Shown here: positions 1,494 through 39,093 of the stretch, piece by piece | Layout: the number at the start of each line of letters is the position of its first letter | Numbering within the stretch: the first letter of the stretch is position 1 | Assembly (NCBI GenBank): GCA_022925895.1 | Contig: JAKSYS010000519.1 | Coordinates: 1-44,668 of the forward strand | Direction: 5' to 3' | Source of the DNA: Fragilaria crotonensis | Taxonomy: Eukaryota > Bacillariophyta > Fragilariophyceae > Fragilariales > Fragilariaceae | Length of the DNA stretch: 44,668 nt | Notes under the pieces: generated by a model | The model's input: only the letters and a program-made list of their open reading frames with translations | Told to the model about the DNA's origin: nothing | The model's database searches: none | Translations under genes and position numbers: made by a program

Positions 1494-3263
1494 TTATGCT
1501 GCTGATAATGACTTTGTCTTGATTCTCCGCATCCCCATGCAGAGTTCTGGTCGATCACGATCAAATCGATTGTGAAAGTAGTACGATCCCTTGGCGTTGC
1601 CGCCTTTTTTGTTGGAACCACCGCCATCTTGCTGTTCTTGTTTCCCACCTCCCAAACGTACACTGACACGTTGAAAGTCATACAGATTGAGTTGTCGTTG
1701 AAACGAGGCCAAGTGCTTCATTCTTGGGAAGTAGACTGGCAAAATGTCATTCTCAAATCGAGTAGGATTGTGAATTGCAAACGATTTGCCATCGGCTGAA
1801 AATGAGGCGATTTCTTGTCCGGCATGTGTCTTGGTTAGTTCTATCAAGAGACGATGCAATTTCATTGGAAAATGATGTTGTTGTTGATTTTGGGCAATCG
1901 AAAAAAGATCTCCGACAACTACTCGTTCCGAGATCATACCACTGTTGCTGCCGGTATTGACATTGACATTGGAGGCTGAGGTAGAAGTCGATGCGGCAGT
2001 GTCAGGGTTAGAATAATTGCTCTGCTGCGGCTGCTGTGATTGTTGTTGAAAAAGGAGCTGTGCCTGTGCCTGTGCCTGCTGCTGTTGTAAAAGAAGGAGC
2101 TGCGGGAGTTGCAAAGTTGAGGCTCCTCCAAAACTGTTGTTGTCGCCACCACCTGTATCGGTCCCACCAGAAAAATTGTCAACAGGAGAGTTGAACAACT
2201 CCAAGAGACCGGCCATGGAGTTCCGTCGTTGTTGTTGCTGCTGGTGGAGGTGTTGCTGCTGTTGATGCAATTGTGGAAGGTCTAAAAATGCAGCATCCAG
2301 CATGGAATTCACATCCGTTGATGGTTGTATTGCTGTTGGTGCTGCATTCCACGGTTGATCCTTCATCGACATCATCATTGTCCGCATCATGGAAGAAGGC
2401 GACGTAGTAGAATGCGATGGTATTGTTGGCAGGTTCAATGGCTGCTGTTGCAAATGTTGTTGTTGTTGTTGTTGTTGTGGCGTTTGCCCGAACTGAAGCT
2501 GCTGCTGTTGCTGCTGCTGCCTCTGCTGTTGTAGTACCATTAACTGACGCTTCTGTTGATGCAAGTACATCTCCAATTTGGAGTTTTCGATTTGTAATAG
2601 CAGCGTTTTCTGTCGAAGTTGGACATTTGCGTAATCGTCATCGTCGTTATTGTTGTTGTTGCTGTCATTGTTGACTGGTATTGTTGTTGAAGAAGAAGGA
2701 AACGAAAGTGGCCCAATGTTGTTGTTGCTGGCGGTTTGCATCATGCTGTTCATGTTCATATTCACGTTGTGCATCATTGACATGTGATTTTGTGAAGGGA
2801 AACCACTTGACCCAACGCCCATGGAACCAACGCTACCAGCACCAGTACCCGAGCCGGTACCAGTACCAGTACCAAGATTACCGTAGCTTGTGAGGGATGA
2901 CTGCAGTGCTGACTGTGAAACTTGTGGCCTCTGCAAGTGCTCCAACAAGGCCAAGTTTGATTGGTGCTGCTGCGCATGCAGTCCCCCACTACCACCAATT
3001 GCTGGTACTTGTAATCCGGATGATGGTTGAGCATTGGCAAACCATGAGGCCAGAAGGTCAGATGACTGTGAGCCAGCACTGGATGCAAGCATCCAGGCGT
3101 TATCATCAGCATTTGACGGTGCATTCAAGCGCTGATGCTGCTGCAGTAGCGACTGCATGTTTGATCGAACATCGTGCTGGCCGTCGGATGTGGAATGTGC
3201 CAGATCACCGGAAGCATCCACCATGTAGGCTTTTTCAAAACGGTTCTTGTTGTCGTAGCTCAT
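1494..3263 (-). CDS. HSF-domain transcription factor, glutamine-rich, DNA-binding domain at C-terminus
   Basis: The predicted protein has 589 residues. The start is the ATG at 3263 (MSYDNKNRFEK); the frame remains open slightly upstream but only with a non-ATG codon. Residues about 30-460 are low complexity: Gln runs, a GTGTGSGTG stretch, Asn/Asp runs. The HSF winged-helix domain is at about 463-585 (FPMKLHRLL ... YFPRMKHLASFQRQLNLYDFQRV). SFQRQLNLY matches the conserved recognition-helix signature (SFxRQLNxYxF). The wing carries an inserted Gly/Lys/Gln-rich loop (GGGKQEQQDGGGSNKKGG) before the final FHNRF...MRRIK block. I see no HR-A/B leucine-heptad oligomerisation region after the domain, where animal and fungal HSFs carry it. 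It should act in the nucleus as a sequence-specific regulator; its targets cannot be read from the sequence. It is not closely related to the three tandem HSFs further right. Confidence 0.9.
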   Translation of the reverse strand: MSYDNKNRFEKAYMVDASGDLAHSTSDGQHDVRSNMQSLLQQHQRLNAPSNADDNAWMLASSAGSQSSDLLASWFANAQPSSGLQVPAIGGSGGLHAQQHQSNLALLEHLQRPQVSQSALQSSLTSYGNLGTGTGTGSGTGAGSVGSMGVGSSGFPSQNHMSMMHNVNMNMNSMMQTASNNNIGPLSFPSSSTTIPVNNDSNNNNNDDDDYANVQLRQKTLLLQIENSKLEMYLHQQKRQLMVLQQQRQQQQQQQLQFGQTPQQQQQQQHLQQQPLNLPTIPSHSTTSPSSMMRTMMMSMKDQPWNAAPTAIQPSTDVNSMLDAAFLDLPQLHQQQQHLHQQQQQRRNSMAGLLELFNSPVDNFSGGTDTGGGDNNSFGGASTLQLPQLLLLQQQQAQAQAQLLFQQQSQQPQQSNYSNPDTAASTSTSASNVNVNTGSNSGMISERVVVGDLFSIAQNQQQHHFPMKLHRLLIELTKTHAGQEIASFSADGKSFAIHNPTRFENDILPVYFPRMKHLASFQRQLNLYDFQRVSVRLGGGKQEQQDGGGSNKKGGNAKGSYYFHNRFDRDRPELCMGMRRIKTKSLSAA

Positions 3264-3856
3264 GATTGATTTTTGTGGATTGTCACAGGCTCTCAACTGT
3301 CGTCAGTATTTCTCTCGCACATGTTCACATTTATGTCGGAGCAGATCACAGAATGGACTTCGCTTTCTTAGAGATGTCTGGGCTAGGCAAAAGTTATTGG
3401 TACATGATTCGAAGTATGAAGCAAAGTTCGGTCACGGTGATGAATGACTGCATACAGGTAGCGTACATAAGGGGTGAGCATGTAGCATCGTAGTATCTAC
3501 TCCCTCAGTACTGGGGAAACATATACAAATATTGCCGTTAAACGTCAGGGTTATACAAATCTGGTATATGTTTCCATTTCTACTTCGAGTAGCAATTGCT
3601 AGCTTGAACCGCGTAAAAGTTCCTCTACCGACTTGTAGTACTTGAAAGTTATACCCCTCTTGTATAAGATTCTAAGTACAGGAGTCCTGTACGTCCTACG
3701 GTTCGTCTAGTACATTATGTAATGACGTACTGCGCGTACAAATTTTCTACGAGAATTGTTCTCAATTCTCGGATGATACGGTGTCACGACGTCACGACTC
3801 ACGACTCAATGCAGTGTTGAGCAATGGTGAACTGTCGACTGTCGATGCGACCTCTA

Positions 3857-5991: not shown

Positions 5992-7458
5992 CTATCGAGC
6001 CCTTGGATCATGACCCTGAGAAGGAGTTTGAGGATTTTGCTGTTGTCGCCGATACCGCCGTTTCTCGGGGGGCACCTTGAAGAGTCCCTTGATTTTGGTT
6101 CTGCGCATCTGCTTGACTAGACCCGGATTGTCGCGGATGAATTTAGCGTGGCAGTATTCCGTCTGAGACGGCCCGGTCCCTCCAACACGGGAAAAATTGT
6201 ACAGGTTGAGTTGACGTTGGAAGGATGCGAAGCGTTTCATCCGTGGAAAGTATAAGGGCATGATTTCGGACTCGAACCGCTGAATATTCTTAACAATGAA
6301 CGATCTCCCGAGAGGCAAAATGAACTTGATAATGTCTTTCTTTTTGTCATCATTTTCGACATCCATTAATAGACGATGCAATGTCATAGGAAAGAACTCG
6401 GGAGCATCACAAAAATTGCGGTCCCTATCAACGACGTTTTCAGCAACAGCAGGTGCCTCGTCAAGGTCGGTTTCGGCATCAGCAGATTTTACTGGTAGTA
6501 ACTGGGAGCTGAGAAAATCAAGAACTGATACCCCTTGTGGGATCTCTTTTATGTTATGAGGCCTTTCTGCAGGCGCATTTGTGCTTTTCCCCGTTGTCGC
6601 AACGAACATGTGGCCGTCTTCCCTGAAATGGCCTGAATTGTCGTTTTGTTTCTCTTGTAAAGACCTTGAGAGCATGTTTATGATCTGCAAATCACGATAA
6701 CGATCTGCGCGAGACCAATCCGCCATTTGTGTCATGTGAAAGCCATCAGAAGTAGCGTTAATTAGATTGTTTGCGCGTGGCGTTTCGGTGATGGGATAAC
6801 TGTTGATCGCACTTTGGAACATGCTGATAATCTGCATATCACGAGAAAGATCTGAACGTGACCAGTTTGTCATGAGGGGGTTATTGGTCGCCATGTCAAA
6901 GTCACCGGAAGAATTGCCCATGTGAAATTTGTGCATCGAATCATGCATGTACCCAGGTGATGTATGAGTATATTCCGTGTTTGTGATAGTGTCTGCACAT
7001 GGCGACTCAGTGGTGGGAGGACTGTTGATCACACCATGGAAATCAGTAGAAGAGTAAAGATCGTCGTTCGCCGCATCAAATACTGCCCGCTCATCAGTTG
7101 ATATGTCAAAGAACCCTTCATCTAGGTCAGGCATTTCCCATGCTGGCAATGGATGTTCTTGAGGAACCGAATCAAATAGTTCGGTGAAACTCGCAGCAAC
7201 TGGCAAGGAGGCAGCCAGGATGCTTCGTCGCATTTGACTTGGATCTGGCTGTCTCGAGATGTAATGCAATACAGATGCCACTTCCTGGTCGAGAATGCGT
7301 GAGCGTGCTGATTCGGAGCTGGGCATTCTCTCGCTATCACTAGTGCCTTGTTGGGGGCCAGTCACCATATGTGAGGTGTTGATACCTCTCCATCTTTCTT
7401 TCAATGCTCGTTCTGAATCTGTTTCGGCAGACTCGTCGTTGAAAGCTGGTCGTCGCAT
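5992..7458 (-). CDS. HSF-domain transcription factor with C-terminal DNA-binding domain and basic tail
   Basis: The predicted protein has 488 residues, starting at the ATG at 7458 (MRRPAFNDESAETDSE); the open frame begins only four codons earlier with TTG. The N-terminal three quarters are Ser/Asp/Asn-rich with no recognised domain. They contain two similar blocks: WSRSDLSRDMQIISMFQSA near residue 200 and WSRADRYRDLQIINMLSRS near residue 245, so a module was probably duplicated. The HSF domain lies at about 355-458 (FPMTLHRLLMD ... YFPRMKRFASFQRQLNLYNFSRV), followed by a basic tail (PPEKRRYRRQQQ) that could help nuclear import or DNA contact. No clear HR-A/B coiled coil follows. Same strand as the previous HSF gene but a different subtype, since similarity is confined to the DNA-binding domain. 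Confidence 0.9.
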   Translation of the reverse strand: MRRPAFNDESAETDSERALKERWRGINTSHMVTGPQQGTSDSERMPSSESARSRILDQEVASVLHYISRQPDPSQMRRSILAASLPVAASFTELFDSVPQEHPLPAWEMPDLDEGFFDISTDERAVFDAANDDLYSSTDFHGVINSPPTTESPCADTITNTEYTHTSPGYMHDSMHKFHMGNSSGDFDMATNNPLMTNWSRSDLSRDMQIISMFQSAINSYPITETPRANNLINATSDGFHMTQMADWSRADRYRDLQIINMLSRSLQEKQNDNSGHFREDGHMFVATTGKSTNAPAERPHNIKEIPQGVSVLDFLSSQLLPVKSADAETDLDEAPAVAENVVDRDRNFCDAPEFFPMTLHRLLMDVENDDKKKDIIKFILPLGRSFIVKNIQRFESEIMPLYFPRMKRFASFQRQLNLYNFSRVGGTGPSQTEYCHAKFIRDNPGLVKQMRRTKIKGLFKVPPEKRRYRRQQQNPQTPSQGHDPRAR

Positions 7459-9030
7459 CTTTCTGGCCAAAGTTTATGTGACCTCCTTCGTGCTTCCCCA
7501 ACAAACTGACGAAACTTTCTGTCTTGCGTCTTGACGATTGTTCTTCACAAGTTTTCGAACGCGGAGCATATGGTCTATGGTACGTAGACAATCGCACGAA
7601 GAAGGTAAAGAATAGTCGCACCTAGCGTGTAATCTTATCATTTTTGCTATTAAATTTTTAAGAGTGATTTCATCAATGGGAATGAGAATCAATGACCCCA
7701 TGAAATCGACATTGGTGATCTGTACTGAAAGGACGTGGCGGCTTCACTGTTGTGGCGGCTCTGACGAAACGAGACTACCGGTAGCCATACCACGAGGTAA
7801 TTTTTTGTATGCAGTCTTTGGTGACGTATGAAGACATATTTCATGCCTACTGTACAATAATTGAAAATTGGAAAACCTCACTGAATATTGCAAAAAAGAA
7901 ATCCGCATTCGAGGAGAAATACACTGTCATCGATGACCCCATGGCACATGGACACAAGCAGCTATCGACAGATGCGAGACAATGACTTTGTAAGTACATA
8001 GCCAAGATACGGGTACGGAACCTGGTACCCGGTACTGGATTATCAGTAGGTGGTAATGCGCGGTTATCAGTCTGAGGGTCTATGGGACATCTCGGCTGAC
8101 CTATGTATGCGCTGTGCAACGTTATAAAGCAACGTACTGTACGCCCGTGGCTTGTGGTACCAGGTATCTTTTAACCACCCGACAGGGTTAACAATAAATC
8201 CCTTCGGGGTTAATTCACCATCCTGTTTTTGCCGACGTCCGTTATCCCTACCTGGTATCATACCATCTGTTTGTCATTCCTATGGTACTGCATACTGGAT
8301 CACTCCGCTCGTACGCTCAAACTTGACTGGTAAACAGTGCCACCATCCACCATGCCATCGCCTCATCACATGATGCATCGTTCGTGTTTCCATTGTGTCA
8401 ATAGAGAGGTTTTGCTCAGTCTACACTGGTCTGGATGACTTGGGGTATCTTGTCTATGTGCACCATAATAGTACGACAACAAGGATGAAAGAGGAGCCTT
8501 GTCCCGAACCCTCTCGTTCCAATTCAAACTGACAAAAAACCTGATGAAAAAAAGTATAAGGACAAGTTTGGATGACCAATTTTCATCAACATCGTTCGAT
8601 TCCTACACCCATACACACGCCTGGTATTCTGCCGACAAACCCCATGCACCTGTCCAGAGGGATGCTCCGTGTGGAAAAGGTCGAAAACCTGACAACTGTG
8701 AATGACCCAACCGTGACAATGGAGGCCCGCCGTGACCTGACTAACTACTGTGAGCCAATTGTGAGATGGACGTGCCACATGAATTGGCCTTCCGCACATC
8801 GATCTACCGTGTACTAATGTATTGAACATATGCAAAGGTGACTGGTGTTGTTGGGATGTGATTAGTAACCTGCTGTCCTGCTTTCACTGTTTGCTCAATA
8901 GGCAGCGCTGTTCTCATAACTTGCTAAATCATCGGCCAAGAGAACACGCTCATGCTAACCGACCCAATTTGTCCGATCCAGACCTTAACTGAATTTCGTA
9001 GCGCACTATAAATCTATTCCAACCTTATCT
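7459..9030. other. Spacer upstream of the HSF gene and downstream of the sigma factor gene
   Basis: This 1.57-kb stretch has only short overlapping open frames on both strands and no recognisable protein. It should hold the promoter of the HSF gene (near 7459-7700) and the 3' end of the sigma factor transcript. A small GTAC/GGTACC cluster lies at about 8010-8040. Confidence 0.5.
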
Positions 9031-11123
9031 CTATTCTACAACTCGTTCAAAATCTCGCCACTCGCTTCCCATTGAGAACTTGAGGTCCTTCAAACTCTTG
9101 AGAATACGTCGTCGTACTTTATCTGGCTTCATACCTACCAACTGGCTAACTTGGGCAATAGTGAGTGGGCCCTCATATCCCTGAGGCAAAATGTGCGGAT
9201 CCACAAGTCCGAAGCGCAGCATGATGATGAGAGCCGATTCCCGATCGAGAGATCGGTAGAGAGATTCGGTCAAGGCTTCTCGCAAAAAGTGGCGTTGGTT
9301 GACATCGCCACCACCGTCATCGGACTTGCTCTCGAGCACATCGTACAGAGAATCTTCACGCTGATTCGAATTTGGTTTGTTGCGATTCGTAATCTGTTGA
9401 TCCAGGGAGAAGCACCGTTGTTCCATTGCCTTGAGACATCGTCCGAGTTGTACTTCTGACATGCTGACAGCGCGTGCCAGTTCTTGATTCGTTGGCAACC
9501 GCCCCAAGGCTTGTGACATTTCCTTTTGTACCAGCATAACTCGCTTATGATTCGCATGTAAACGTTGCGGAATGGTGATGACTCTGGATTGGAATGTTTG
9601 AGATCGTTTTACCGCTGATCGGATCCAGTACATGGCATACGTTGAGAAGCGAAAGCCTCGCTGCGGTTCAAACTTTTCAGCAGCACGAATGAGGGCCTGT
9701 GAAACGCACAGTATTCGTCAGTTCAATGAAATAGAGAAATCCAGTAAAGGAACGGACGGCAAAATCAACTCACCATGACACCCTCTTGCATCATGTCGCC
9801 AGCATTGTACTGTCCACTGAGCCCATTTCGAATGTAAACGTTGACAACACCCTGGACCAATCGAAGATTGGATGTCACTAGCTTATTCTTGGCTTCAATT
9901 CCTTGTTCTAGTGCTTGTCGAATGGCCTCCATATTGATCTTTCCAGATGCGGCACACCATTCCTCATCCGTTGGTTCTCGTTGTAACTTTGTTACCATAT
10001 CATCGTACAGTGTTTGTAGCTGTATCGCTTCTTGTGTTAATCGTCCGAGTTGGATTTCTTCACTGGGAGATATGCGTTCTTCCTGTGGTCATGTAAAAGA
10101 GAAGTGAGGTACATGAGTGAGCATGAGAAGGAAGGTTGTACGAGGTGGGGGAACATAACCACGAACAAGTAATAATAATAACAAACGTACTTGATGCAAT
10201 TCCTTGGCAAATTGCATTAAACTCTCTGGAACACTGGAACTGGATTGATACATGGCATCACCTGCCGTCGTTTGGCGTTGTCTCGTTTGCAACGCAACAG
10301 ATGGCTTGGTGGGACCATGATCCTGGGTTGGATCTTCGATACGACGCAACATGCGAACCTGCGATTGTTGTCGTTGTGACGGTATCGAAAATCCTGGCAT
10401 GGTACTACTGCGAGAAGTGCGAGTCGTCATATTAGGCAATTTCGATGTCGTCGATGTTGTTGTCGTCTTTCTCTTGATTGCTTGCTTTTTCAGTCGCGTC
10501 TTGGTTGACATTGCTGTTGCTGTGGTAACTCTCTTTGTAGTAAATTTGGTTGTCGTGTCTGTTGTTGATGTTGTTGATGCAGTCGCGGGAGTTATTGTTG
10601 AGTCGGTTGGCATGGACGGGATTGGTGCTATTGAAGCGAATCCCAGGAAACGTTCTCTTGCTTGATCAATGTCATCCAATTTGCCAACACGTCGTGGTGC
10701 GACGACAAGTGCGGTATCCTCCACTGTATTTGTTGTTGTTGCAGCTGCAGCTGTTGTTGTTGTCGCCATCATCACGTTCATGTGAGGCTTGTGATTGTCA
10801 TGTTGATACTTGTGTTGAGTCAACCGTGTAGTTTGCGACAACGATGGCACAGTAAAGGCTGCCAATGGTGGAACGAGCAGTATCATCGACAACACCATGT
10901 ACACAGTTGTACGACGAGCCAGATGGATGGAACGACTGCTGCTCAAGAGAGAAGCAACTCCAATTGTATTCACGTCCGTATTCAAGTTTCTCATTCTGTG
11001 GAGACTGTCGTGTCTCTGTCGCGACATTATCATGATAATCAGTAACAAGGATTCTCTCGTTCGCGTTATTGGTAGAGTTGTTATTGTCGTTTTCGTCGTT
11101 GTGTGCTTTGGTAATGTTGACAA
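9031..11123 (-). CDS. Nuclear-encoded plastid sigma-70 factor, three exons
   Basis: Exons are 11123-10191, 10082-9774 and 9696-9031. The introns (108 and 77 bp) begin GTACGT and GTGAGT, end in AG, and keep the frame; the spliced protein has 635 residues. Exon 2 carries region 1.2 (SPSEEIQLGRLTQEA) and starts region 2 (NKLVTSNLRLVQGVV ... GDMMQEGVM). Exon 3 completes region 2 (ALIRAAEKFEP..GFRFSTYAMYWIRSAVKRS), region 3 (IPQRLHANHKR) and region 4 (SLDRESALIIMLRFGL ... TIAQVSQLVGMKPDKVRRR). This is a primary-type sigma that would direct the bacterial-type plastid RNA polymerase. The N-terminus has a hydrophobic stretch ending LLVPPLAA-FTVP (Phe90), an ASAFAP-like cleavage motif of diatom bipartite presequences. 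The signal sequence sits 75-90 residues in, so the true start may be Met44 or Met76. Residues about 100-290 are a Thr/Ser-rich linker. Confidence 0.93.
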
Positions 11124-12120: not shown

Positions 12121-12263
12121 GAGCCGTTGTGAGCGGGTTTGTAGCACTCTGTAACAAGAATTGCAGTGGTTCATAGTGTGTACTATTGAAAGTGTAGCGG
12201 ACTTTCCATACCCATCTTTCGGAACACAACAATTGCAACAGCAAACGAAACGGGCGAAAATCG

Positions 12264-13202
12264 ATGCAGAAAGTAAGCAGAACAACCGAACTGATCCAAG
12301 CTGCCAGCAACGGCAACTTTGGACCCACCATTCTCAATGTGAGACCTCATGGTCCAATGCCATTGATGGGAATTACATCTCTACACCCATTTATGACCCA
12401 TTCTACCCAAGTCTTTCCTGCAGCATCTGCCATTCAGAATCTTCGAACCATGCGTCAGCAGTATTCCAGCGTCAATACGTCGAGAATCAATGCTATTCAA
12501 CAGGCAATCAATCATGCCTTGAGACGACCACACCTTGTCCCCGATTTCAACTGGTCGCCATCGTCTCATCTCACCTCATCGGCCGTTGGACTATACGCCG
12601 ACGCTAACGTTGCCTTTTCAAACGCTGCACGTTTGACTTCTCCCGTCATCAACTCAATCGATGCCATGAGCCAAATGATGATCTCACAAGCAAGGATTGG
12701 ATCTCATTTCAATCTTCCACTTGATGATGATCACAGGCTCTTGTCCGGCACACCACCAGCATCACCAACACCACTACTTCTGGTAGATCCTCCTACAACG
12801 CCAGCACCGACCTTACCAACAACAACAACGATGATCTCAAGACGTTCGTTGCCTACTATGGAGGGGTATGACAAGCGATCCTTTCCCATCATACTTCACA
12901 GAGCCCTTCAAGAACTCGATCGACTTCCTGGAGGTAGCGATGCTGCTGCGTTTCACCCAGATGGTCGTTCCTTTTTCATCACTGATCAGCAAAAGTTTGC
13001 AGATTTAGTGCTTCCCGTCTTTTTCCCCAAGATGAAGGGCTTTGCTAGTTTTCAGCGGCAGCTGAATCTGTACGACTTTCGACGTGTTGGAGGAATGGGA
13101 CCCGATCGAGGCTCCTATCGCCACGGTCTGTTCCATCGAGACTTTCCAAGTTATTTGGTTTTCATGAAACGACGAAAGATTAAAAGACCTTCAAGGGTTT
13201 GA
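12264..13202 (+). CDS. HSF-domain transcription factor, tandem family copy 1
   Basis: The protein has 312 residues. The HSF domain fills the C-terminal third (about 205-312: RSFPIILHRAL ... VFFPKMKGFASFQRQLNLYDFRRV ... LFHRDFPSYLVFMKRRKIK). The N-terminal two thirds align with the copies at 27481 and 29352 (AIQSLR-type block, LNWSPSS, SIDAMSQM), so all three are paralogues; this is the most diverged. No leucine-heptad oligomerisation region follows the domain. The ATG used here corresponds to the internal second Met of the paralogues. Their first ATG is TTG here (12233-12235), and the stretch between the two positions differs by one base, so the first ten residues of the family are lost. The next ~380 bp downstream also align with the flank of copy 2, so the duplicated unit included 3' flanking DNA. 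Confidence 0.92.
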   Translation: MQKVSRTTELIQAASNGNFGPTILNVRPHGPMPLMGITSLHPFMTHSTQVFPAASAIQNLRTMRQQYSSVNTSRINAIQQAINHALRRPHLVPDFNWSPSSHLTSSAVGLYADANVAFSNAARLTSPVINSIDAMSQMMISQARIGSHFNLPLDDDHRLLSGTPPASPTPLLLVDPPTTPAPTLPTTTTMISRRSLPTMEGYDKRSFPIILHRALQELDRLPGGSDAAAFHPDGRSFFITDQQKFADLVLPVFFPKMKGFASFQRQLNLYDFRRVGGMGPDRGSYRHGLFHRDFPSYLVFMKRRKIKRPSRV

Positions 13203-13634: not shown

Positions 13635-14239
13635 CGGCACATAACCCATTATTTATAGGTTCGATTTTCTTTCTCCCAAGTAGTGTCCATTGGACAAAAC
13701 AGAAAGTAAAGTATCCAAGTTCTAAACTCCCAAGTTTCCTTTGAGAGGTCGAAGGTGAGTGCCACTTAGATGCAAGTCTCGTCCTAATCCATAGGTGCGT
13801 ACTTCACATTCATGATTGCTATGACAATGATGACTACCACCAAGAGGAGGCAAAAGGTGCACTATGCCCAGGACTTTGAGAACTCGACAGGTGTCGCAAA
13901 CGTCATTGCGAATGTGGCAGCTGTTGTAGTTGATGTCGTAGTACGACGCCGTCGATTGCGACAACGAAGAAGAAGAACTCACGGCGGATCTATGCCTGGA
14001 CGACGATCATTTAGAGTACGCACCCGAAGGTCAGTTGAAGACATTTACAAGCAACTTGCCAAAGTCTACTTTCAAAGGGCGTATCGAATGAAATACAGGA
14101 CATTTAAGCGTCTTGCCGCTGAGCTTGGTCCGCATATAATTGCAGCTTCTGGTCAGAAAGGAGGTCAATCAGGATCCACCATTCGGAATGGACCAATTTC
14201 ATCTGATGTCTGCCTTGCTTGTGCAATTCGCTGGTTTGC

Positions 14240-14254
14240 AGGTGGCTCAGTATA
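14240..14254. repeat. Retroelement target duplication, copy 1
   Basis: AGGTGGCTCAGTATA is part of the Harbinger transposase frame (coding GGSVY) and marks the left junction of the first retroelement. Exact copies are at 15739-15753 and 19489-19503. Confidence 0.95.
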
Positions 14255-15738
14255 TTGACACCAATTCATCAACTCGGAGTGAGCTCGGTGGCTGCGCGTC
14301 TTCCCTTCTTTTTCTATCATCTCTCTCGGCCTTCTGGGGAATTCGCCACCGTTGCTCCATTCGATGGTACACAGATAGTACCTCAGCGATTAGCCGTTTC
14401 AATAAGTTCTGCGGTCGAGGGCAGCGTTCCAGTCGGATGCCACCAGATTCCGATCTCCTGTCAATTATCACATCATGCCGACGCAAACTCAGAAGACCCT
14501 TCACACCCTATTGGGTTCGGGCCCATCAAGATAACTCCTCGGCATATGATAAGCTGCCTTTGGCAGCTCGTCTCAATATCGATGCTGATTTTCTGGCCAC
14601 ACGTTATCGCCAACATGGAAGACTGAGGGCAATAGTGTCCATCGATCACCATGTTGATCAACAGGTATCGGTCTACATCAACGGCATTCCAGTTACTGGC
14701 CAATACGACGAAAGCGTTCGTTTCCATATCAATGGATACCATCACCGCAACTATGTTCAGCAAAGCAACGGTTGGGACAACAAAACATGGGGGGACATTG
14801 ACTTCTACACTTTTGGGACACATTTCAAACGGCTGAGACCATCCCATCGAGGACAACACTTCAAATTTGTTCACGAATACCTACCCCTTGGTGATCGTCG
14901 TTTTCGCGAGGCTCCCATCCCCGATATATCTCTGAAACTGTGCCCTTGTTGTCGGAAGGAGGACGAATCACCGTTACACTTTGTTCAGTGCCAATCAAAC
15001 AAAGTGTTTCACTCAAGCATTGAAACTCTACGATCAGATATTCTCACAAGCGATATCCATCCGGTACGATATCTGCTGTGCGAGGGGTTTTGCAATGCAA
15101 TCAAGGCTGAAACGCCGTACTCTCCGTCCACTTTTCAATACCCTCGCCACTTCCAGGATGCGATCTCCCAGGCTTTACAGTCCCAATTGGCCATAGGCTG
15201 GCACCAAGCTCTCAAAGGATACTTCACCAAGGAATGGGGCAAGATGGCACAAATTGACATGCACAATGGTACCCGTGATACACGCAGGGGCGAGATGCGA
15301 ATGCGCCAAATCATAAGCGCCCTCAGCAGACACACTCGACGACTCTGGCTATCGCGGAACGAATCCCTTCGCTCCCCAAACAACAAAACTCTTGACAGCA
15401 TTCGTTCAGCTGAGACGGCAGAAATCAAGTTTTACCATAGCCGACCTCACCTCTTACGCACAGGGGACCAACATTACTGCCGTCGATCACTGACTAAGCT
15501 ATTGGCAGGTACGCCCGCGACTAGGAGACGCTGGCTACGGAAAGTGAAACAGTCCACAGCAGACTTGACCAAAGACGGCACACGACAGACACTTCTCACA
15601 TCTTTTTTCCGTACGAATTGACAAATCGCTCTTATCTAAATCTCTCGCGGTACACCGCCCGAGCAGAGGGTACACAAGTATGGCCTACCGGCCATACTAT
15701 GGTGAAAACCTTTATAATTAGTTCACGTTTTCCGTTTT
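14255..15738 (+). mobile_element. 5'-truncated non-LTR retroelement A (3' third)
   Basis: This 1,484-bp insertion on the + strand is bounded by 15-bp duplications. It begins inside the RNase H region and keeps the rest of the ORF plus a 117-bp 3' tail ending TTTTCCGTTTT. It has no long poly(A) and no LTR. Truncation at the 5' end with a target duplication of this length is the usual outcome of target-primed reverse transcription. Confidence 0.85.
14257..15621 (+). CDS. Retroelement A polyprotein fragment: RNase H and C-terminal zinc-knuckle region
   Basis: About 454 residues are open with no stop. The fragment starts just before the RNase H acidic block (STRSELGGCAS) and continues with IRWYTDSTSAIS and PYWVRAHQDNS, so the Glu, second Asp and His positions of RNase H are present while the first Asp block and all of the reverse transcriptase are missing. 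Downstream are a conserved FHINGYHHRNYVQ block and a Cys/His motif (LCPCCRKEDESPLHFVQC) of the kind found near the C-terminus of LINE proteins. It aligns along its length with retroelement B (for example NKTWGDIDFYTFG against NKTWDRIDFELFG) but is clearly a different subfamily. It cannot be functional by itself. Confidence 0.85.
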   Translation, partial: DTNSSTRSELGGCASSLLFLSSLSAFWGIRHRCSIRWYTDSTSAISRFNKFCGRGQRSSRMPPDSDLLSIITSCRRKLRRPFTPYWVRAHQDNSSAYDKLPLAARLNIDADFLATRYRQHGRLRAIVSIDHHVDQQVSVYINGIPVTGQYDESVRFHINGYHHRNYVQQSNGWDNKTWGDIDFYTFGTHFKRLRPSHRGQHFKFVHEYLPLGDRRFREAPIPDISLKLCPCCRKEDESPLHFVQCQSNKVFHSSIETLRSDILTSDIHPVRYLLCEGFCNAIKAETPYSPSTFQYPRHFQDAISQALQSQLAIGWHQALKGYFTKEWGKMAQIDMHNGTRDTRRGEMRMRQIISALSRHTRRLWLSRNESLRSPNNKTLDSIRSAETAEIKFYHSRPHLLRTGDQHYCRRSLTKLLAGTPATRRRWLRKVKQSTADLTKDGTRQTLLTSFFRTN

Positions 15739-15753
15739 AGGTGGCTCAGTATA
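15739..15753. repeat. Retroelement target duplication, copy 2 (between the two elements)
   Basis: AGGTGGCTCAGTATA lies between the 3' end of element A and the 3' end of element B. With one upstream T and one downstream C it matches copy 3 over 17 bp. A third copy in the middle means that two separate insertion events used this site. Confidence 0.95.
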
Positions 15754-18700
15754 CATATATATACAAAACTAATTATTGGGTTATCACCGTCTTCAATCTT
15801 TGTCCAAGACCAAAGTGTGTACACCCCGGGCCATACCATATTGCAGGTTGGCGACGGTGCATTTATCCCTAACCCTAATGTTCCTGTCCAGTCGTTGATG
15901 CGCTTGCCATTGGGACAGTATCCGCTGGACGGAAAAATTGTGTCAACAGTAACTGCCTTTGCCCATCTTTAAGCATCCTTGCCCGTGACATGCGAGTATA
16001 TTGCAGCCACCGTCGCCGAGTCGCGGGGCTTTTCTTTAGAATGGATTCGATTGGTTGATCGCAATTGTGACGGTCCCCTGCTTGTAGCCGCTCGGGATGG
16101 TCATACATGTCCCTAATTTCTCTAGTTTCCGAGTCTCTGATATCTTTGAGAGCCTGATCGTCCGATTTATGTAGATCCTCATTCCTGCTTTTCCACAAGC
16201 GTTGAGTGAGATGATGTACATGGCAAAGTATGCTGTTCAATGTTGAAAATCCCACTCCGAGTGGTTTTTCTTTGACGTTGTCGTATGTGTCCAACTCAGC
16301 CAGATACCTCCATTCGACGCTGAGGTACCCTTTGACCGCATTACCCCATCCGATGATGGCTTGATCGCATAGTGCCGTATGAATCGTGTCCCTCATTTTC
16401 CTAGGGAAAACCGTTTGATCGGGTTCGTATTCGTGATCCTCAAACCACGCCACGATCCCTTCCTTCAATAACGTGAAGATTGGGTGATATTCGGTGGGCG
16501 TCATTTTCATCCGAAACTCCCGTAGCGCTAGATCGCGATCCGGATTCATTCGACAGTGAAGTACATGAGCAGATGTCTCCACCTCGGTGCGACAACAGGG
16601 ACACTGGGCCATAGTTGCATCCTTTACGGACGATACACGCTCTCGTTTCTTGCCTGTATGCCATTGGTCGTAGATAAATTTGGTGTGCGCTACTTGCGCT
16701 CTTGTGTTCAATTTTCGGTAGAATCTGCCGAACAATTCAAAGTCGATGCGATCCCAAGTTTTGTTGGACCAACGTTGGCGAGATTGTATGTATTGTCTGA
16801 GATGGTATCCATTAATATGGAACCGGAGTGTCGCTTCCACTTGGCTAACGATTCGTACACCATTAACAGATATCGATACTTTTGATTCGGGTGAATGGTC
16901 CGTGTGCTCCACTGATTGCCGATAATTTTGTTGGTTCCGATACCACGTTGCCAGTGAATCTGCTCTGTTGTTCAGCTTGGAGTCGATACTTTGACCCATG
17001 CTCTTGTTCTGATGGCCCTTTACCCAGACCGGTGTAATCCGACGACGGAGGTTGGTGGTCTCCGATTGTATGATTCCCAAATAATCCGCATTGCTCGGTT
17101 GTCGTTTCTTCCTGTATGTTCGCTCTTGAACCTTCGAGACGTTTGTGATGGCAGTTCTGCTGTCCGTTACCCACCGAAATTTGCATTTGTAACGGACGCC
17201 CCAGAGCGTGTGAAGAAGTGATAAGAATATCAACGATGCCGCGTAGCCTCCGAGTTCGCAACGAGTTGAGTTTGCTGAATCGTATGGACCGTCCACCGGC
17301 CCTGCTCCCTCCGCAAGAATACCATTGGCTTTTGTGCTTATGACCCATCCGCAAGTTCCCTGGCAACCCTTTAGGCCCCCATCAGATGCAATAATAACGG
17401 TCTGCTTCCGTTGGCTCTCTTCCCAAAGCTGGTCAAGATTTGTCGCCTGTCCAATGTGTGCTAGTAGGCGTCGTCGAGCACGAGGTAATGTTTTGATTGC
17501 TTTGGCTAAATCTGGTCCTGACTCCGGATGTCCGACCGGTGGTTTGGCGTTCACGAGATCTGCTAGCGATGCCCTCGGAGATGCTCTCCACACCCTATCG
17601 TATCGAAGGTATTGCGACGTGATATAACGTCTCCAAAGCCGACGTTGTTGGCTGGTCACGGAGACTTGACGTGGCCATGCTGTATTGCCTTTAAAATGTA
17701 TTGGGCGACGGGCCTCCAATGCCCACGTTGCAATTTTTCTGCTCTCTGACGGGTCGACGAGGTCCGCAAGCGTTGAAACCTGTAAGTGAATTCGAACGAG
17801 GTTCAAATCTTGTTGTTGTCTGAGGGTATAGCCTTTCAGGCGCTGTAGGTCCATGATGTAAAGATCGTGTCGACCCTGGAGGGGAATGATGAAAGTGTCT
17901 GTCAGCGTGATTCTTACATTGTGATTTGACATGAATTGTCGCATGGACAAAATCCATGTTGGTGTCAAGTATGGGATATGAATATCGGGTTCCTCCAACA
18001 AAATATGTGGTAGACCGGATTCCAATTGGGATGCCTGAACTTGTAGTAGCAGTAGCTGTCCCACCTTTGTATTCCCGTAGACTTCGTGTCTAAAATATTT
18101 GATCATTTCGATACCACACTCCGTCCTCAAATCAAGTAGATCAAGTCCACCCATTGACACTGGGCCATACCTTACTGCGGTTGCCAATTTGGACGAGAAG
18201 CCCAATCTCTGTACTATCGTGGGAATGATCTTGGACTGGATCTTTTCGAGTTCTTCTTCGTCTACAGCTATGGCCGGTAGAGAATATAGCATAGCTGGCT
18301 TGTAAATGGATCGATGAAAGACTTTGAGGTCGGATTTGGTGAGTCGAGGCGATCGTATGTAACCTGCGAATCTATCTGCCTTAGCTTTTAAGACAGTAAT
18401 ATGATCCGAGAAGTCACCGAGCGGAGTTTGGTGAACTCCTAAGATCCGTGATGATTCATGCAATTGCTGTCGGCGAATAGTAGACACCGATCTTGGCTGG
18501 CCAGATCCTTGATACAATTGAACGGTTGGGTCATCCGCCTTGATTTCGCGAAGTCCTGGTCTACCTTGACGCCAGTCCCAGTACATAACGTACCAAGAAC
18601 ACTTTTGCAAATTTAGCCCACCTCCCGAAAAATGTAAAAGTTGTTCCCATGTTTGAGCGACTGATGCGAGAGCCGCCACCAGTTCCGAGAGTGAGCGTTC

Positions 18701-19488
18701 TCCGGTATCAGTCAAACCTATTGCTGTGTCATCGACAAACGCGTCAACAAGACGTTGATGGTGTATCTTTCCATCGGCGGACGTGAAGCTGATTCTCTCA
18801 TGTACTACGCGTTCCAATGTGTTTAGTAAAATAACGACAAGGGAGAGCCATACAGCTGGAGACGCCCCACTGCCTTGTCCCGTACCAAACAGTGGCTCCA
18901 GTGCTGTCCCTTTGTATGATTCTTCCGAGACCCCATAAATGGTTTTCACCATATATTGCATAAGTTCAAGAGCCTTGGCGTGTGTGCGAACGGCCTCCAC
19001 TGGCATTCCGCATCGTCGTGCTGCCATCATACCGAGTGCCACTATGATGCGATCAAAACACGCCGAAGCATCATTATCGAAGCGTGCGTAATTTACCTTC
19101 AAAACTCGACATAGGTCTGTGGTCAACTGATTAAGCATCACGGGATCCATAGTTGTCCTTCCTGGCACCGAACCATGTTGGCCTTCGTTAAGAAGATTGA
19201 GCTGTACTGAGCGGTTGACAAGGCGAGATCCCCACATGATCTTGAGAAACAAATTGTAGTCCGCTTCAAATAAATGGATGATACGAAGTCGGTTGATGCG
19301 AGGTCTGCCAGGATCCTTTTCGATCATAACATTAACGGCTTTGCACCATCGTGGTGGAGCAATCCCTCTGGAAATGGTGATATTAAGAAACTTGCATAGG
19401 CATTTGATGAGCACTGGATCCGTGATCAATGCCTTGTAGTGTCCCAAGTGCCTTCCCGACGGTGACGTAGTAGTAGTCTCGCGCCAAT
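15754..19488 (-). mobile_element. 5'-truncated non-LTR retroelement B with reverse transcriptase and RNase H
   Basis: This 3,735-bp insertion is on the minus strand. Its 3' end (low coordinate) carries a TATATATA-type tail; its 5' end (19488) breaks inside the start of the reverse transcriptase domain. It has no LTRs. It inserted at the same 15-bp site as element A but in the opposite orientation. The order of the two insertions cannot be decided, because either order gives the same pattern of three site copies. Confidence 0.88.
15875..19488 (-). CDS. Retroelement B polyprotein: reverse transcriptase, RNase H, zinc-knuckle (5'-truncated)
   Basis: An uninterrupted frame of about 1,200 codons runs from the truncation point to TGA at 15875-15877. 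It enters at SPSGRHLGHYKAL, a motif I associate with diatom reverse transcriptases, and there is no natural ATG. Reverse transcriptase landmarks are ARFDNDASACFDRI, GTGQGSGASP and the catalytic box AFVDDTAIG (Asp-Asp codons at 18728-18733). RNase H follows with all four acidic/His blocks: IIASDGGLKG, STRCELGGYA, RWVTDSRTAI and WVKGHQNKS. A FHINGYHLRQYIQ block and a Cys/His motif (QCPCCRTEVETSAHVLHC) lie towards the C-terminus. No endonuclease domain is present; it would lie upstream of the truncation if it existed. The open frame implies a young insertion. Confidence 0.9.
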
Positions 19489-19503
19489 AGGTGGCTCAGT
19501 ATA
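19489..19503. repeat. Retroelement target duplication, copy 3
   Basis: AGGTGGCTCAGTATA marks the right end of the nested insertions; the Harbinger transposase frame resumes immediately after it. Confidence 0.95.
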
Positions 19504-20513
19504 CGACCTCATGACCACATACGGTATCAGTCACACCGATACAGTCAACAGCTTTTGGTTTGTCGTGGAGGCTATAAACAGGAATCCAAACTTCAACATT
19601 GAGTACCCAACTGATCACGAAGAACAGAAACGTTTTGCCCAAGGCTTTCACGCAGTCTCAAGTGCTGGTTTCAAGTCCTGTGCAGGGGCATAGATGGAAT
19701 ACTGGTGTGGATTCACAAGCCAGCTCCAAAAGATTGTATCGACTCTGGGTGTAGCTCTGGTAAGTTTATGTGCGCGAGAAAGAAGAAGTTTGGACTAAAC
19801 TGCCAAGCAGTGAGCGATTTTCGGGGTCGGATCCTGGACATCTCAATTCTATATCCCGGATCGACATCAGATATTCTAGCCTTCGAAGGTATGTCACTGT
19901 TCCAGAAGTTGGAAGAGGGCATATTGGCTCCAGGCTTGCGTATCTTTGGTGACAATGCATATCTGAACACACCATACATGGCGACCCCGTACTCCGCTGT
20001 TTCCGGCGGGACAAAAGATTCTTACAATTTCTACCACTCTCAGTTGAGAATTTGGGTTGAATGCACGTTTGGGATGCTGACACATCGATGGGCAATCCTT
20101 AGAAGCGCAATACCGATGAATGTAACGGTACAGAAGACTGTCGCGCTGGTACTTGCACTTGCCAAGCTCCACAATTACTGTATCGATGCTCAAGATGACA
20201 GTAGGGATGTTTAACACACCGCAAGCGACGAGTGGGTCTCAGAAATAAATGGTGGCGTGCCCTTGGTTCCAGTAGCAGCTGAGTTTCAGTCTGGGAACAA
20301 TGATGTCGTACCAGAACAGTTACTACATGGAGGACATCATTTCGATGATATCGGCGGCGCAGTGGGTCGACGAAACAGGCAGCGGCGGTATGTGTACGAA
20401 GCTGACGGAGTACAACTCCCAAGAGAAGCACTTCATTCAGTCTATTGGTGTTACGAGGCCAATACCACGACCGTAGAGACAATAATAGTAGTAGACAAAG
20501 ACTAGTAGTAGTA

Positions 20514-27365: not shown

Positions 27366-27480
27366 CAGAGGTTGTCAGCTGTTGTGTACTCTAGTACCAG
27401 GTATGGCTGTGGTACATATAATGGATACTATTCAAGTGTAGCGGACTCGCCATGTAGCCATTATTCGGAACAAAACAAGC

Positions 27481-28368
27481 ATGGAGAAAGCACAAGGAAC
27501 GGGCGAATCGATGGAGAAGGTAACCAGAGTGACCGAATTGATCCAAATAGCCGACAGTGACAACTTACGAAGCCGCAATCAAAGTGTGAGACTCCATGGC
27601 TCACTGTCATTGATGGGAATACCTACCTTCCATCCATTCATGACCCAGCATTCTACCCGCGCCTTCCCTGCGGCATCTGCCATTCAGAGTCTTCGTACCA
27701 ATACGTTGAATATCAATGCTATACAACAGGCAGTCCATGCCTTGAGACGAGCAGACCTTGTCCACAATTTGAACTGGTCGCCTCCTTCGAATCTCGTTTC
27801 GTCCACAGGACTATACGCAGACACTGCCGTGTCAAACGGCCATTGGTTATCTCCCCTCAACTCGATCGATGTCATGAGCCAAATGCTGATCTTACAGACA
27901 ACGAGAAGCCCACATTTCCATCCTCCCCACGAGCACACGCTTTTATCAGCATCCGAAGCACCACCAACAGCATCTGCTCTTCGACAACCGGCCTTGCCAA
28001 CATCGATCTCGAGAGGATTGACGACCGGGGGGATTGAAAAACGATCATTTCCCATCATTCTTCACAGAGCCCTTCACGAACTCGATAGACTTCCCGGAGG
28101 TAGCGATGTTGCTGCATTTCTCCCAGATGGTCGTTCCTTTTGCATCAGGGATCATCAAGAGTTCACTGACTTAGTGCTTCCCGTCTTTTTCCCCAAGATG
28201 AAGGGGTTTGCAAGTTTTCAGCGGCAGCTGAATTTGTACGACTTTAAACGTGTTGGAGGAATGGGACCCGATCGAGGCTGCTACCGGCACAGTCTATTTC
28301 ATCGAGACTTTCCAGGTTATTTGATTTTCGTGAAACGACGAAAGATTAAAGGACACTCGAGAGTTTGA
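27481..28368 (+). CDS. HSF-domain transcription factor, tandem family copy 2
   Basis: The protein has 295 residues and starts at ATG 27481 (MEKAQGTGES). The DNA-binding domain is at about 188-295 (KRSFPIILHRALHELD ... VFFPKMKGFASFQRQLNLYDFKRV ... SLFHRDFPGYLIFVKRRKIK). No oligomerisation heptads follow. The N-terminal region (AIQSLR, VHALRRADLVHNLNWSPPS, NSIDVMSQM, SEAPPTASALRQP) is shared with copies 1 and 3 and with nothing else in the window, so it defines this subfamily. Identity with copy 3 is 261 of 295 residues by my count, with a 241-bp stretch without any difference. The upstream region shares GTGTAGCGGACT and CGGAACA words with copy 1, so promoter DNA was duplicated too. Confidence 0.93.
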   Translation: MEKAQGTGESMEKVTRVTELIQIADSDNLRSRNQSVRLHGSLSLMGIPTFHPFMTQHSTRAFPAASAIQSLRTNTLNINAIQQAVHALRRADLVHNLNWSPPSNLVSSTGLYADTAVSNGHWLSPLNSIDVMSQMLILQTTRSPHFHPPHEHTLLSASEAPPTASALRQPALPTSISRGLTTGGIEKRSFPIILHRALHELDRLPGGSDVAAFLPDGRSFCIRDHQEFTDLVLPVFFPKMKGFASFQRQLNLYDFKRVGGMGPDRGCYRHSLFHRDFPGYLIFVKRRKIKGHSRV

Positions 28369-29246: not shown

Positions 29247-29351
29247 CAGCGGTCGTCAGTTGTTGTGTAGCTCGACATACCATGCGTGGAAGTGGTACAT
29301 AATTAACGCACACAAGAATAACAAAACTCTTCATCGTTAACGAAACAAACA

Positions 29352-30239
29352 ATGGAGAAAGCACAAGGAACGGGCGAATCGATGCAGACGGTAACCAGAG
29401 TATCCGAATTGATCCAAATAGCTGACAATGGCAACTTACAAAGCAGCAATCAAAGTGTGAGACCCCATGGCTCACTGTCATTGATGGGGATACCACCACT
29501 CCATCCATTCATGACCCAGCATTCTACCCACGCCTTCCCTGCGGCATCTGCCATTCAGAGTCTTCGTCCCAATACGTTGAGTGTCAATGCTATACAGCAG
29601 GCAGTCCATGCCTTGAGACGAGCAGACCTTGTCCACAATTTGAACTGGTCGCCTCCCTCGAATCTCGCCTCGTCCGCAGGACTCTACGCAGACATTGCCG
29701 TGCGAAACGGCCATTCGTTATCTCCCCTCAACTCGATCGATGTCATGAGCCAAGTGCTGATCTCACAGACAAGACGTAGCCCACGTTTCCATCTTCCCCA
29801 CGAGCACACGCTTTTATCAGCATCCGAAGCACCACCAACAGCATCTGCTCTTCGACAACCGGCCTTGCCAACATCGATCTCGAGAGGATTGACGACCGGG
29901 GGGATTGAAAAACGATCATTTCCCATCATTCTTCACAGAGCCCTTCACGAACTCGATAGACTTCCCGGAGGTAGCGATGTTGCTGCATTTCTCCCAGATG
30001 GTCGTTCCTTTTGCATCAGGGATCATCAAGAGTTCGCTGACTTGGTGCTTCCCGTCTTTTTCCCCAAGATGAAGGGGTATGCAAGTTTTCAGCGGCAGCT
30101 GAATTTGTACGACTTCAAACGTGTTGGAGGAATGGGACCCGATCGAGGCTGCTACCAGCACAGTCTGTTTCATCGAGACTATCCAGATTATTTGACCGTC
30201 ATGAAACGACGAAAGATTAAGGGACCTTCGAGCGTTTGA
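29352..30239 (+). CDS. HSF-domain transcription factor, tandem family copy 3
   Basis: The protein has 295 residues and the same length and layout as copy 2, 1,871 bp upstream, with no indels between them. The DNA-binding domain is at about 188-295, with FASFQRQLNLYDF changed to YASFQRQLNLYDF and the C-terminal strand changed to HRDYPDYLTVMKRRKIK. Most differences lie outside residues 149-228, where the two genes are identical at DNA level. No stops or frameshifts are present, so it should be functional. Like its paralogues it is intronless and lacks a visible HR-A/B region, so how it oligomerises, if at all, is unclear. Confidence 0.93.
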   Translation: MEKAQGTGESMQTVTRVSELIQIADNGNLQSSNQSVRPHGSLSLMGIPPLHPFMTQHSTHAFPAASAIQSLRPNTLSVNAIQQAVHALRRADLVHNLNWSPPSNLASSAGLYADIAVRNGHSLSPLNSIDVMSQVLISQTRRSPRFHLPHEHTLLSASEAPPTASALRQPALPTSISRGLTTGGIEKRSFPIILHRALHELDRLPGGSDVAAFLPDGRSFCIRDHQEFADLVLPVFFPKMKGYASFQRQLNLYDFKRVGGMGPDRGCYQHSLFHRDYPDYLTVMKRRKIKGPSSV

Positions 30240-36648: not shown

Positions 36649-39093
36649 TTACAGATTATGTTTCCCCGCCTGCGCTGACCGCAGCTCGTTAATGATTTCA
36701 GCGTTGGCAGGGATAGGTTTCTGCCATGTCCAGTCGGCACCGGCCTCTATGAATTGAGAATTCAGTTCGTTTCCAGAGCTTCCAATGATAATGGCATCAT
36801 TCTTCAAGCGCCGCATCTCTCGAACCACTTGGGTGCCATGCATGACGCCACCGGCTTCTTCCATGTACTGGTCAACAACTATGACATCAAAATTACTGTT
36901 GGCGCAAATCTCCAACGCTTCTTCTCCAGTGCAAGCCTCAGTGATTGTACAATTCGGAGCAATTTTCTGCGACAAACGACGCTTCAGCATTCTTCGATTT
37001 ATACTCAAATCGTCGACAATCAAGAATGACAATGCTTCTTCAATAACTTCTGCCTCCGCTGAAGCTTTCTCTCCAGCATCATCTGGTTCAATGCAGGCGG
37101 TTAATGGCAACAGGACGACGCAATTGGTCCCCGGTTGGACAGTGGGATCGCTCTCAAAGTGAATTGTCCCATTCATGAGCGTAACAATGTGCTTCACGAT
37201 TGCGAGACCAAGCCCACTACCGGGGGCTGATCCTCGTTGGACAAATCTCTCAAACATCATCTCTTGCTGATCCTTAGGAATGCCCGGACCAGTATCGATG
37301 CATTCAATCTTGACCATGTCCTCTTCCCAACCAACGGAAAGTGTTATAGAACCCACCGATGTGTACTTCATGGCATTTGTAACAACATTAGTCAGCACTT
37401 GTTGAAGTCTGTGCATGTCAGCGAGGACCCAGTCCCGATCCGTAGTCCTTAGATCGACTAGAAATGCAACTCCCTCCTTGACCCCTGGTAGCAGCATCGT
37501 ATGAACGCTCAACACGAACGCACTGAGTGACATTGGTTTTGGATTTAGCTGCATTTTCCCTTCTTCCATCTTGCGAACATCCAAAAGGTTGTTCATTATC
37601 GATGCCATAAAGTCTGTACAGAGCTGCATACCAGCAATAAGATCGCGAGCTGATTCTGGAACATCGTCAGGCATGGTCCGGAGTGCGCTGTCGATCGCAC
37701 CCAGGGGATTGCGGAGTTCGTGAGCAAAATATGCCGTCATATTTCGCTCAGTTTCCACAGATGCTTCTTGAGCTAGTGAGGATGCTACCATCTCGAGCTG
37801 CTTCTGTCTCTGAACAAGAGTCACATAGACAAGAATAGAGATGCAAAGTGAGAGCGTGACGCAGACCGTGATAATGACTGCCTTCACAATGTGCACCTGG
37901 GCATCATTGTACACCACAGTGATTTCCCATTCATTGTTTGTTGTCTGAAGAGCTTTCGACACCACGTGCCCACCTTCGTTTCTGGAGCAGAAGTACTTCG
38001 TCTCGGCAAGAACGACAACGGTTTCATCGTACGCATTGGATGTTGCGTTGAAATTTCGATCCGTGCGTGTCAACTGGAACTCCATCCCTCGATCCGCAAA
38101 GCTTTGATAAATGTCACTGCGAGTAACCAGCGCTTCCCAGTTGATGAGGGCCGTTGCGAATCCCCATTTGTTGTGCGTGATCCCGTCGACTTGAATCGTA
38201 TTGTTCGGATCTGCAATGGGCAGCCGTGCGATAAAGGCCTTCTCCACAGCAGCATCACACGTGACGTCTCGACACTGCCTGAGTTTCAATGGACCAGCAA
38301 TCGACACTGTATCCTTTGCAAACGTCGACTTGGCAATAAAGCTATTGGCTGGGTCCACAAAGAGGTCGAGACCACGTACGGGGGTATTGTTCAAGACAAT
38401 GCCATTTTGAAAATCTTCCGTGTTAACAAGTGGATAGAGCAAACAAATGACAGCGGCGGGGGCGAGTTGCAGGTTGACCAATACTCCTTCCATTTTGGCA
38501 TTAGCCTTGATTCTTGCAGCAATATGATCGAATCCCCGCATCAAGGCAGGATTATCGCAAACACCAGTAATGTTTCGATGAGTGTAAGGACCGCCAGGCT
38601 GACTTGGTGGGTTGAACGGCAGAGCCCCTTCCGTTCCAGCAATTCCAACTTTTTTAGGCAGGTTGTGAAAGAGCGAGAGCTCCACAGCAAACTGTGCGAT
38701 GGAGAAGAGAGGCAGGATTGCAAGATTGAGCTGATTCGAAAACCATTCTCCCGTTTCAGTTGCGAGATCCAGCGCTTGGCTTTCTTCCTCTCGTTCTTGA
38801 GCACTGGAGAGGACCACGCTAACAGCAATACTTGCTGCCAATAGGACGCTAAAGATAAAGATCGAAATTCCCAGTATAAACTTGTGCTTGTACATGTGAC
38901 TCCATACGTTGCGGCAACCACAGATGCGACATTGGCATGACCGTGACAGTAATGGCCCCCAAAATGTAGCAGTCTTCTGTCGTTTGTTGCCTTTGAAGCC
39001 CCTCGGAATTGAGAATGCTGCAACCTTTCTTGCTGAATGTCCTGTGGCGCATCCCTGTTCGAGATCATCTGTCATGCTGTCTGTTGTGGTCAT
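36649..39093 (-). CDS. Membrane hybrid histidine kinase with CHASE-like sensor and receiver domain
   Basis: The protein has 814 residues from ATG 39093 (MTTTDSMTDDLEQG); eight upstream codons are open but start with TTG. Order: cytosolic N-terminus with a Cys cluster (CQCRICGC); TM1 (about 73-96); an extracellular or lumenal domain (97-402) that fits a CHASE sensor (APAAVICLLYPLVN ... RGLDLFVDPANSFIA ... FIARLPI); TM2 (about 403-427); HisKA with phospho-acceptor His458 (FAHELRNPLGAID); an HATPase with N box (NVVTNAMKYTS), G1 (DTGPGIP) and G2 (GSGLGLAIVKHI); and a C-terminal receiver (SFLIVDDLSINRRML) with phospho-acceptor Asp741 (VVDQYM) and WQKP lysine. All catalytic residues are present. 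CHASE domains in other organisms sense small ligands such as cytokinins; the ligand here is unknown. Signal would pass His to Asp and then to a phosphotransfer protein. Confidence 0.95.
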   Translation of the reverse strand: MTTTDSMTDDLEQGCATGHSARKVAAFSIPRGFKGNKRQKTATFWGPLLSRSCQCRICGCRNVWSHMYKHKFILGISIFIFSVLLAASIAVSVVLSSAQEREEESQALDLATETGEWFSNQLNLAILPLFSIAQFAVELSLFHNLPKKVGIAGTEGALPFNPPSQPGGPYTHRNITGVCDNPALMRGFDHIAARIKANAKMEGVLVNLQLAPAAVICLLYPLVNTEDFQNGIVLNNTPVRGLDLFVDPANSFIAKSTFAKDTVSIAGPLKLRQCRDVTCDAAVEKAFIARLPIADPNNTIQVDGITHNKWGFATALINWEALVTRSDIYQSFADRGMEFQLTRTDRNFNATSNAYDETVVVLAETKYFCSRNEGGHVVSKALQTTNNEWEITVVYNDAQVHIVKAVIITVCVTLSLCISILVYVTLVQRQKQLEMVASSLAQEASVETERNMTAYFAHELRNPLGAIDSALRTMPDDVPESARDLIAGMQLCTDFMASIMNNLLDVRKMEEGKMQLNPKPMSLSAFVLSVHTMLLPGVKEGVAFLVDLRTTDRDWVLADMHRLQQVLTNVVTNAMKYTSVGSITLSVGWEEDMVKIECIDTGPGIPKDQQEMMFERFVQRGSAPGSGLGLAIVKHIVTLMNGTIHFESDPTVQPGTNCVVLLPLTACIEPDDAGEKASAEAEVIEEALSFLIVDDLSINRRMLKRRLSQKIAPNCTITEACTGEEALEICANSNFDVIVVDQYMEEAGGVMHGTQVVREMRRLKNDAIIIGSSGNELNSQFIEAGADWTWQKPIPANAEIINELRSAQAGKHNL

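Follow-up and report, generated by a model that had tools for sequence, protein, structure and literature searches.

Two predicted LINEs inserted tail to tail with overlapping target duplications in a Harbinger-type transposase gene of Fragilaria crotonensis

Two retroelements of opposite orientation lie side by side within a Harbinger-type transposase gene of Fragilaria crotonensis, and one 15-bp sequence stands before, between and behind them. The locus raises the question of whether both were led there by an endonuclease with a preference for conserved sequence within Harbinger transposase genes, as the original prediction from this DNA proposed, or whether two insertions came to overlap in some other way. 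The window, that is the whole 44.7-kb stretch of DNA analysed, contains three exact copies of AGGTGGCTCAGTATA (14240-14254, 15739-15753 and 19489-19503), which confirms the predicted presence of the 15-mer at the left junction, between the elements and at the right junction. When up to two mismatches were allowed, the window still gave three matches against 0.08 expected, a number reached in none of 100 shuffles. The whole assembly (62,107,879 bases in 881 contigs scanned) contained the 15-mer three times in forward and never in reverse orientation, all three being the window copies. The F. crotonensis SAG 28.96 assembly is given in its source as 61.85 Mb in 879 contigs, based on Nanopore (read N50 17.8 kb) and Illumina data (PMC9476933). 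The region is organized as follows.

13788 to 14254, plus strand: 5′ part of a Harbinger-type transposase ORF including the left target copy (ORF 13788-14258; DNA similarity to Harbinger paralogs continues into the DDE part)
14240 to 14254, plus strand: left copy of the 15-bp duplication, the upstream duplication of element A (exact repeat)
14255 to 15738, plus strand: element A, predicted LINE, 5′-truncated in the RNase H-like region (ORF end at 15621; 3′ module and tail ending in CCGTTTT)
15739 to 15753, plus strand: middle copy of the 15-mer; together with T 15738 and C 15754, left copy of the 17-bp repeat of element B (repeat extension)
15754 to 19488, minus strand: element B, predicted LINE, 5′-truncated at the start of the reverse transcriptase (RT), with RT, RNase H-like and CCHC-type parts (sequence and protein matches)
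19489 to 19503, plus strand: right copy of the 15-mer; together with T 19488 and C 19504, right copy of the 17-bp repeat (repeat extension)
19504 to 20214, plus strand: 3′ part of the transposase gene, DDE_Tnp_4 (Pfam match; frame continuing from the site)

The insertion site is coding sequence, as had been predicted: the transposase frame GGSVYDLMTTYGISH continues past the insertions, and the downstream ORF (19615-20214) matches DDE_Tnp_4 with E = 4.3e-23. In the 5′ part (13788-14254) Pfam recognised no transposase domain. The frame continuing from the site (19490-19720, plus strand) meets a stop after SAGFKSCAGA, and by this stop the Harbinger copy is broken independently of the two insertions. 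Elsewhere the window encodes five ORFs with a heat-shock-factor DNA-binding domain (1494-3302 and 5992-7473 on the minus strand, 12198-13202, 27442-28368 and 29322-30239 on the plus strand), the last three being alike and representing a local expansion, a Sigma-70 type factor with regions 2 and 3 (9031-9717, minus strand) that presumably serves the plastid, and a hybrid histidine kinase with a receiver domain (36649-39168, minus strand).

Elements A and B are arranged tail to tail on opposite strands and carry open, related reading frames without internal stops that are 39% identical over 455 columns. Each has its own 3′ end, and the 5′ truncations differ, in the RNase H-like region for A and at the RT start for B, which agrees with the earlier view of separate events by different subfamilies in opposite orientation. 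The nearest genomic copy of B lies on contig C218, with 98.7% identity across 2097 bp and 98.5% across a further 412 bp; A has its nearest copies at about 70% identity across roughly 545 bp and, for a 155-bp piece, at 82%. Proteins matching B numbered 621 at E ≤ 0.001, and the best 120 of these included several of full length (~1.9 kaa), the best full-length relative among the matches listed being P0003 (75% identical). Nineteen of the best 120 were aligned and scanned with Pfam (E ≤ 0.01), giving Exo_endo_phos in 5/19 (best match E = 9.5e-08), RVT_1 in 3/19 and RNase_H in 1/19; a CCHC-type motif (CPCC...H...C) is legible in the alignment. Because of these domain matches in some full-length relatives, the family is predicted to consist of LINEs with an APE endonuclease, RT and RNase H, which answers the earlier question about the endonuclease of full-length copies in favour of the APE type; A and B would have lost this domain through 5′ truncation. 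RT motifs were recognised in the sequence of B itself. B alone gave no Pfam match and a single PDB match at E = 0.45, and the profile of the 19 relatives gave no match in PDB; the domains are therefore divergent. A genome search with PF03372 returned 91 matches, LINE and host genes together. As in LINEs, the RT (RVT_1 in 3/19) goes with short flanking duplications (repeats of 15 and 17 bp) and no LTRs, and family copies combine a fixed 3′ end with variable 5′ truncation and duplications of variable length.

Family copies end in a common 3′ module composed of GGGTACAC, a hairpin, GGTGAxAACC, ATAATTAG and a tail. In 22 hand-chosen modules (21 of 38 and one more, the 17 left out being mostly of unusual length or near-duplicates) 89.8% of the hairpin cells were paired versus 60.6% after shuffling, and the covariation score was 0.808 versus 0.277, with 0/500 shuffles reaching either value; a two-sided change was seen in 8/9 pairs, a figure that does not discriminate since 156/500 shuffles matched it. 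These 22 modules thus display the conserved 3′ stem-loop of stringent-type LINEs; an Rfam scan of 14200-19600 gave no match. In the stringent-type LINE ZfL2 a conserved 3′ stem-loop is likewise followed by a short tail, although ZfL2 belongs to another clade and host (PMC4176376).

Five insertions consist of the 3′ hairpin module and tail only (68-74 bp; L024, L045 at about 2733-2805, L055, L092 and L103 at 684-751) and have their own duplications of 13-18 bp, that of L092 with mismatches. All five start 0-3 nt before GGGTAC, L103 at 0 if an ambiguous G is assigned to its duplication. When 17 truncation points were drawn uniformly over 1500 nt, five fell within 4 nt in 0/200,000 runs, and the over-representation of short copies in the sample does not explain the common start. 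Possibly reverse transcription stops at a fixed point at the module edge, or the template is a short RNA or an ultra-short SINE-like unit. L045 is inserted in the coding sequence of a related LINE, a further case of nesting, at an unrelated site. The near-identical copies L094-L100 and L006 share a longer sequence (GGGGCCGCGACACTGTACTAGTACAGTGACGCC) upstream of the module and possibly form a separate SINE-like family with the same 3′ end.

The junctions do not bear out one identical cut for both elements. The repeat shared by the left and middle copies, and by the left and right copies, extends over 15 bp, and that shared by the middle and right copies over 17 bp (TAGGTGGCTCAGTATAC). The claim of exactly the same 15-bp site therefore stands for the 15-mer common to all three copies and fails for the repeats (15 bp for A versus 17 bp around B), and with it falls the claim of the same staggered cut; what the elements have in common is the stretch where a 15-bp duplication overlaps one of 16-17 bp. 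The opposite orientation of the elements, formerly held against strict site specificity, is by itself no argument against one shared cut site, because an element can enter either way round by the same pair of nicks, made in reverse order.

The order of the insertions can be read at the 5′ junction of B, where the window has CACCT-A-TTGGCGCGAG and the C218 copy AAATC-TTGGCGCGAG. The extra A appears foreign to B because it is missing from the C218 copy, which is 98.5% identical, and it equals, on the other strand, the last T of the tail of A. Since this base matches the end of the A tail and seems not to be B's own, A was most likely inserted first and B later across the downstream duplication of A, about 1 nt off; we infer this order mainly from the one base. 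Against it, the single diagnostic base may have been added without a template, since in the C218 copy, too, the tail and the 16-bp duplication of that copy are separated by one additional base. The duplication of B may include the two outer bases of the element (15754 and 19488), which, given that extra base of C218, is less sure for the C on the other side of B. Relatives around the truncation point of A often have A at the position corresponding to 14254; this base may thus belong to element A, so that the duplication of A is 14 or 15 bp long.

We consider a sequential, rare double hit, A followed by B, to be the probable origin of the pair. RNA of subfamily A would have been inserted by target-primed reverse transcription into the Harbinger transposase gene with a 15-bp duplication. 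RNA of subfamily B would later have been inserted in the opposite orientation, at a staggered cut of 16-17 bp that took in the downstream duplication of A, the final base of the A tail and possibly one further base. The outcome would be three copies of the 15-mer and two 3′ ends facing each other. A strict 3′-end pattern found 110 + 110 copies in the genome (reversed control 0 + 0), hence at least 220 family 3′ ends. If copies were inserted uniformly, 220 of them should give 0.0003 opposite pairs whose edges both agree to within 1 nt, and 5000 of them 0.15; because of these low values pure chance is a strained account. Mild site preference or reuse of a nick may have helped the double hit, and a single context of insertion does not allow chance to be told from mild preference.

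The specificity of the endonuclease was assessed on other insertions of the family and on related Harbinger loci. The sampled loci contained 65 distinct 3′ ends, which yielded 20 candidates with flanking repeats; A itself (3), repeats (2; L013 = L011, L027 = L016) and weak or non-family cases (3; L057, L061, L086) were removed, leaving 12 independent insertions besides A. Together with the C218 copy and L103 these make 14 insertions, with duplications of 13-20 bp, none resembling AGGTGGCTCAGTATA or one another, in a survey biased toward short copies and covering 1.5 kb on each side of most loci. A target common to most copies, the mark of site-specific LINEs, was thus not found. The first nick, compared in 15 contexts (those of A, of B, of C218 and of the 12 others, L103 being left out), carried 2.46 bits, random positions averaging 1.88 (p = 0.112), and these values point to at most a weak sequence preference of the endonuclease family. 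Twenty-nine Harbinger paralogous loci (L063-L091) make up the empty-site count, further paralog matches being left out; 25 of them, representing 22 distinct places, could be aligned over the rejoined flanks, all being empty at the site with gaps of no more than 3 nt, and 4/29 have no alignment there.

These results weigh against the idea that the local sequence or chromatin offers a good endonuclease target on both strands, which then received two independent insertions. Such a double use has a precedent in human NF1, where different Alu subfamilies reused one L1-endonuclease site, once on opposite strands (PMC3219598), although those insertions are from different people and not nested in one chromosome, and the L1 endonuclease has a known consensus (PMC3219598). 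Precise parallel SINE insertions in toothed whales (0.18-0.29%) are similarly independent, shifted by at most 1 nt and in one pair opposite, but occurred in different lineages (PMC10531181). In the present genome two near-identical copies on contig C157 (L060, L061) lie in the same orientation and contain internal 60-bp tandem repeats; the 15-bp duplication of the second starts 26 bp past the tail of the first, and this proximity favours a hotspot, while the duplications are distinct and the sites near but different. With no significant preference in the 15 nick contexts and all 22 paralogous places empty, we regard a hotspot as unlikely.

Slightly less likely still is that the insertion of A itself supplied the primer, an unsealed 3′ end left by its second-strand completion at the far edge of its downstream duplication having primed the RNA of B. 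This would predict exactly the observed geometry, with opposite elements whose 3′ ends face each other across one duplication. If the G at the 3′ end of B is counted as tail (C218 has such an extra base), the primer of B would end exactly at the second cut of A; on the 17-bp reading it would sit 1 nt beyond it, and a second cut of the other strand would be required in either case. A genome search with a strict tail-to-tail pattern (gap 18-48) found the A/B pair and one other match, no better than the 1 + 1 of the reversed control, and hence no further convincing pair, the pattern requiring exact matches and being able to miss pairs.

Preferential insertion into a conserved part of the Harbinger transposase genes, suggested by two insertions within one transposase codon block, is rejected as highly improbable: the 15-mer is unique to the window, the 14 other duplications are unrelated (the very finding named beforehand as refuting it), the paralogous places are empty and the nicks have no consensus. 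No more credible is a merger of an A-bearing with a B-bearing allele by the assembler, conceivable in a diploid genome from which redundant contigs were removed with Redundans (PMC9476933), since the read N50 of 17.8 kb (PMC9476933) exceeds the 5.3-kb cluster, the 17-bp repeat contains the last base of A, as would be anticipated only for insertion of B into a chromosome already carrying A, and a merger would still need two insertions at one site. The last point holds also for unequal exchange between alleles; a single event in which both 3′ ends of a staggered break served as primers would place the 3′ ends outside and the 5′ ends centrally, the reverse of what is observed, so that two events are required, and twin priming is ruled out, since A and B represent different subfamilies and both possess a 3′ end of their own.

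The sequential double hit, which we prefer, resembles the R1 tandem arrays of Drosophila 28S genes, where a further element is inferred to have been inserted into the duplication of an earlier one and the copies are separated by one target duplication (PMC2718515). R1 is, however, site-specific, its arrays run in one direction and the duplication lies at the 5′ end (PMC2718515), whereas A and B are opposite, share the duplication at their 3′ ends and belong to a family in which no site specificity was seen. No description of a tail-to-tail LINE pair sharing a duplication was found in the open-licence papers searched, mostly through titles and the openings of abstracts.

Each component of this arrangement is known already, and the new detail is the tail-to-tail nesting of LINEs that appear to lack site specificity; the locus represents a coincidence that is rare and of a familiar type, and does not speak for an element aiming at transposase genes. 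It records cleanly, in a lineage where LINEs seem to lack site specificity, an overlap of two LINE insertions to within about 1 nt, and offers an example of how the order of nested insertions may be read from single junction bases. Should a nick left by one insertion have been reused, one LINE integration would be a priming site for another LINE RNA and would give rise to tail-to-tail pairs sharing one duplication. If such pairs prove recurrent, they would provide a test of whether an unfinished LINE insertion primes another.
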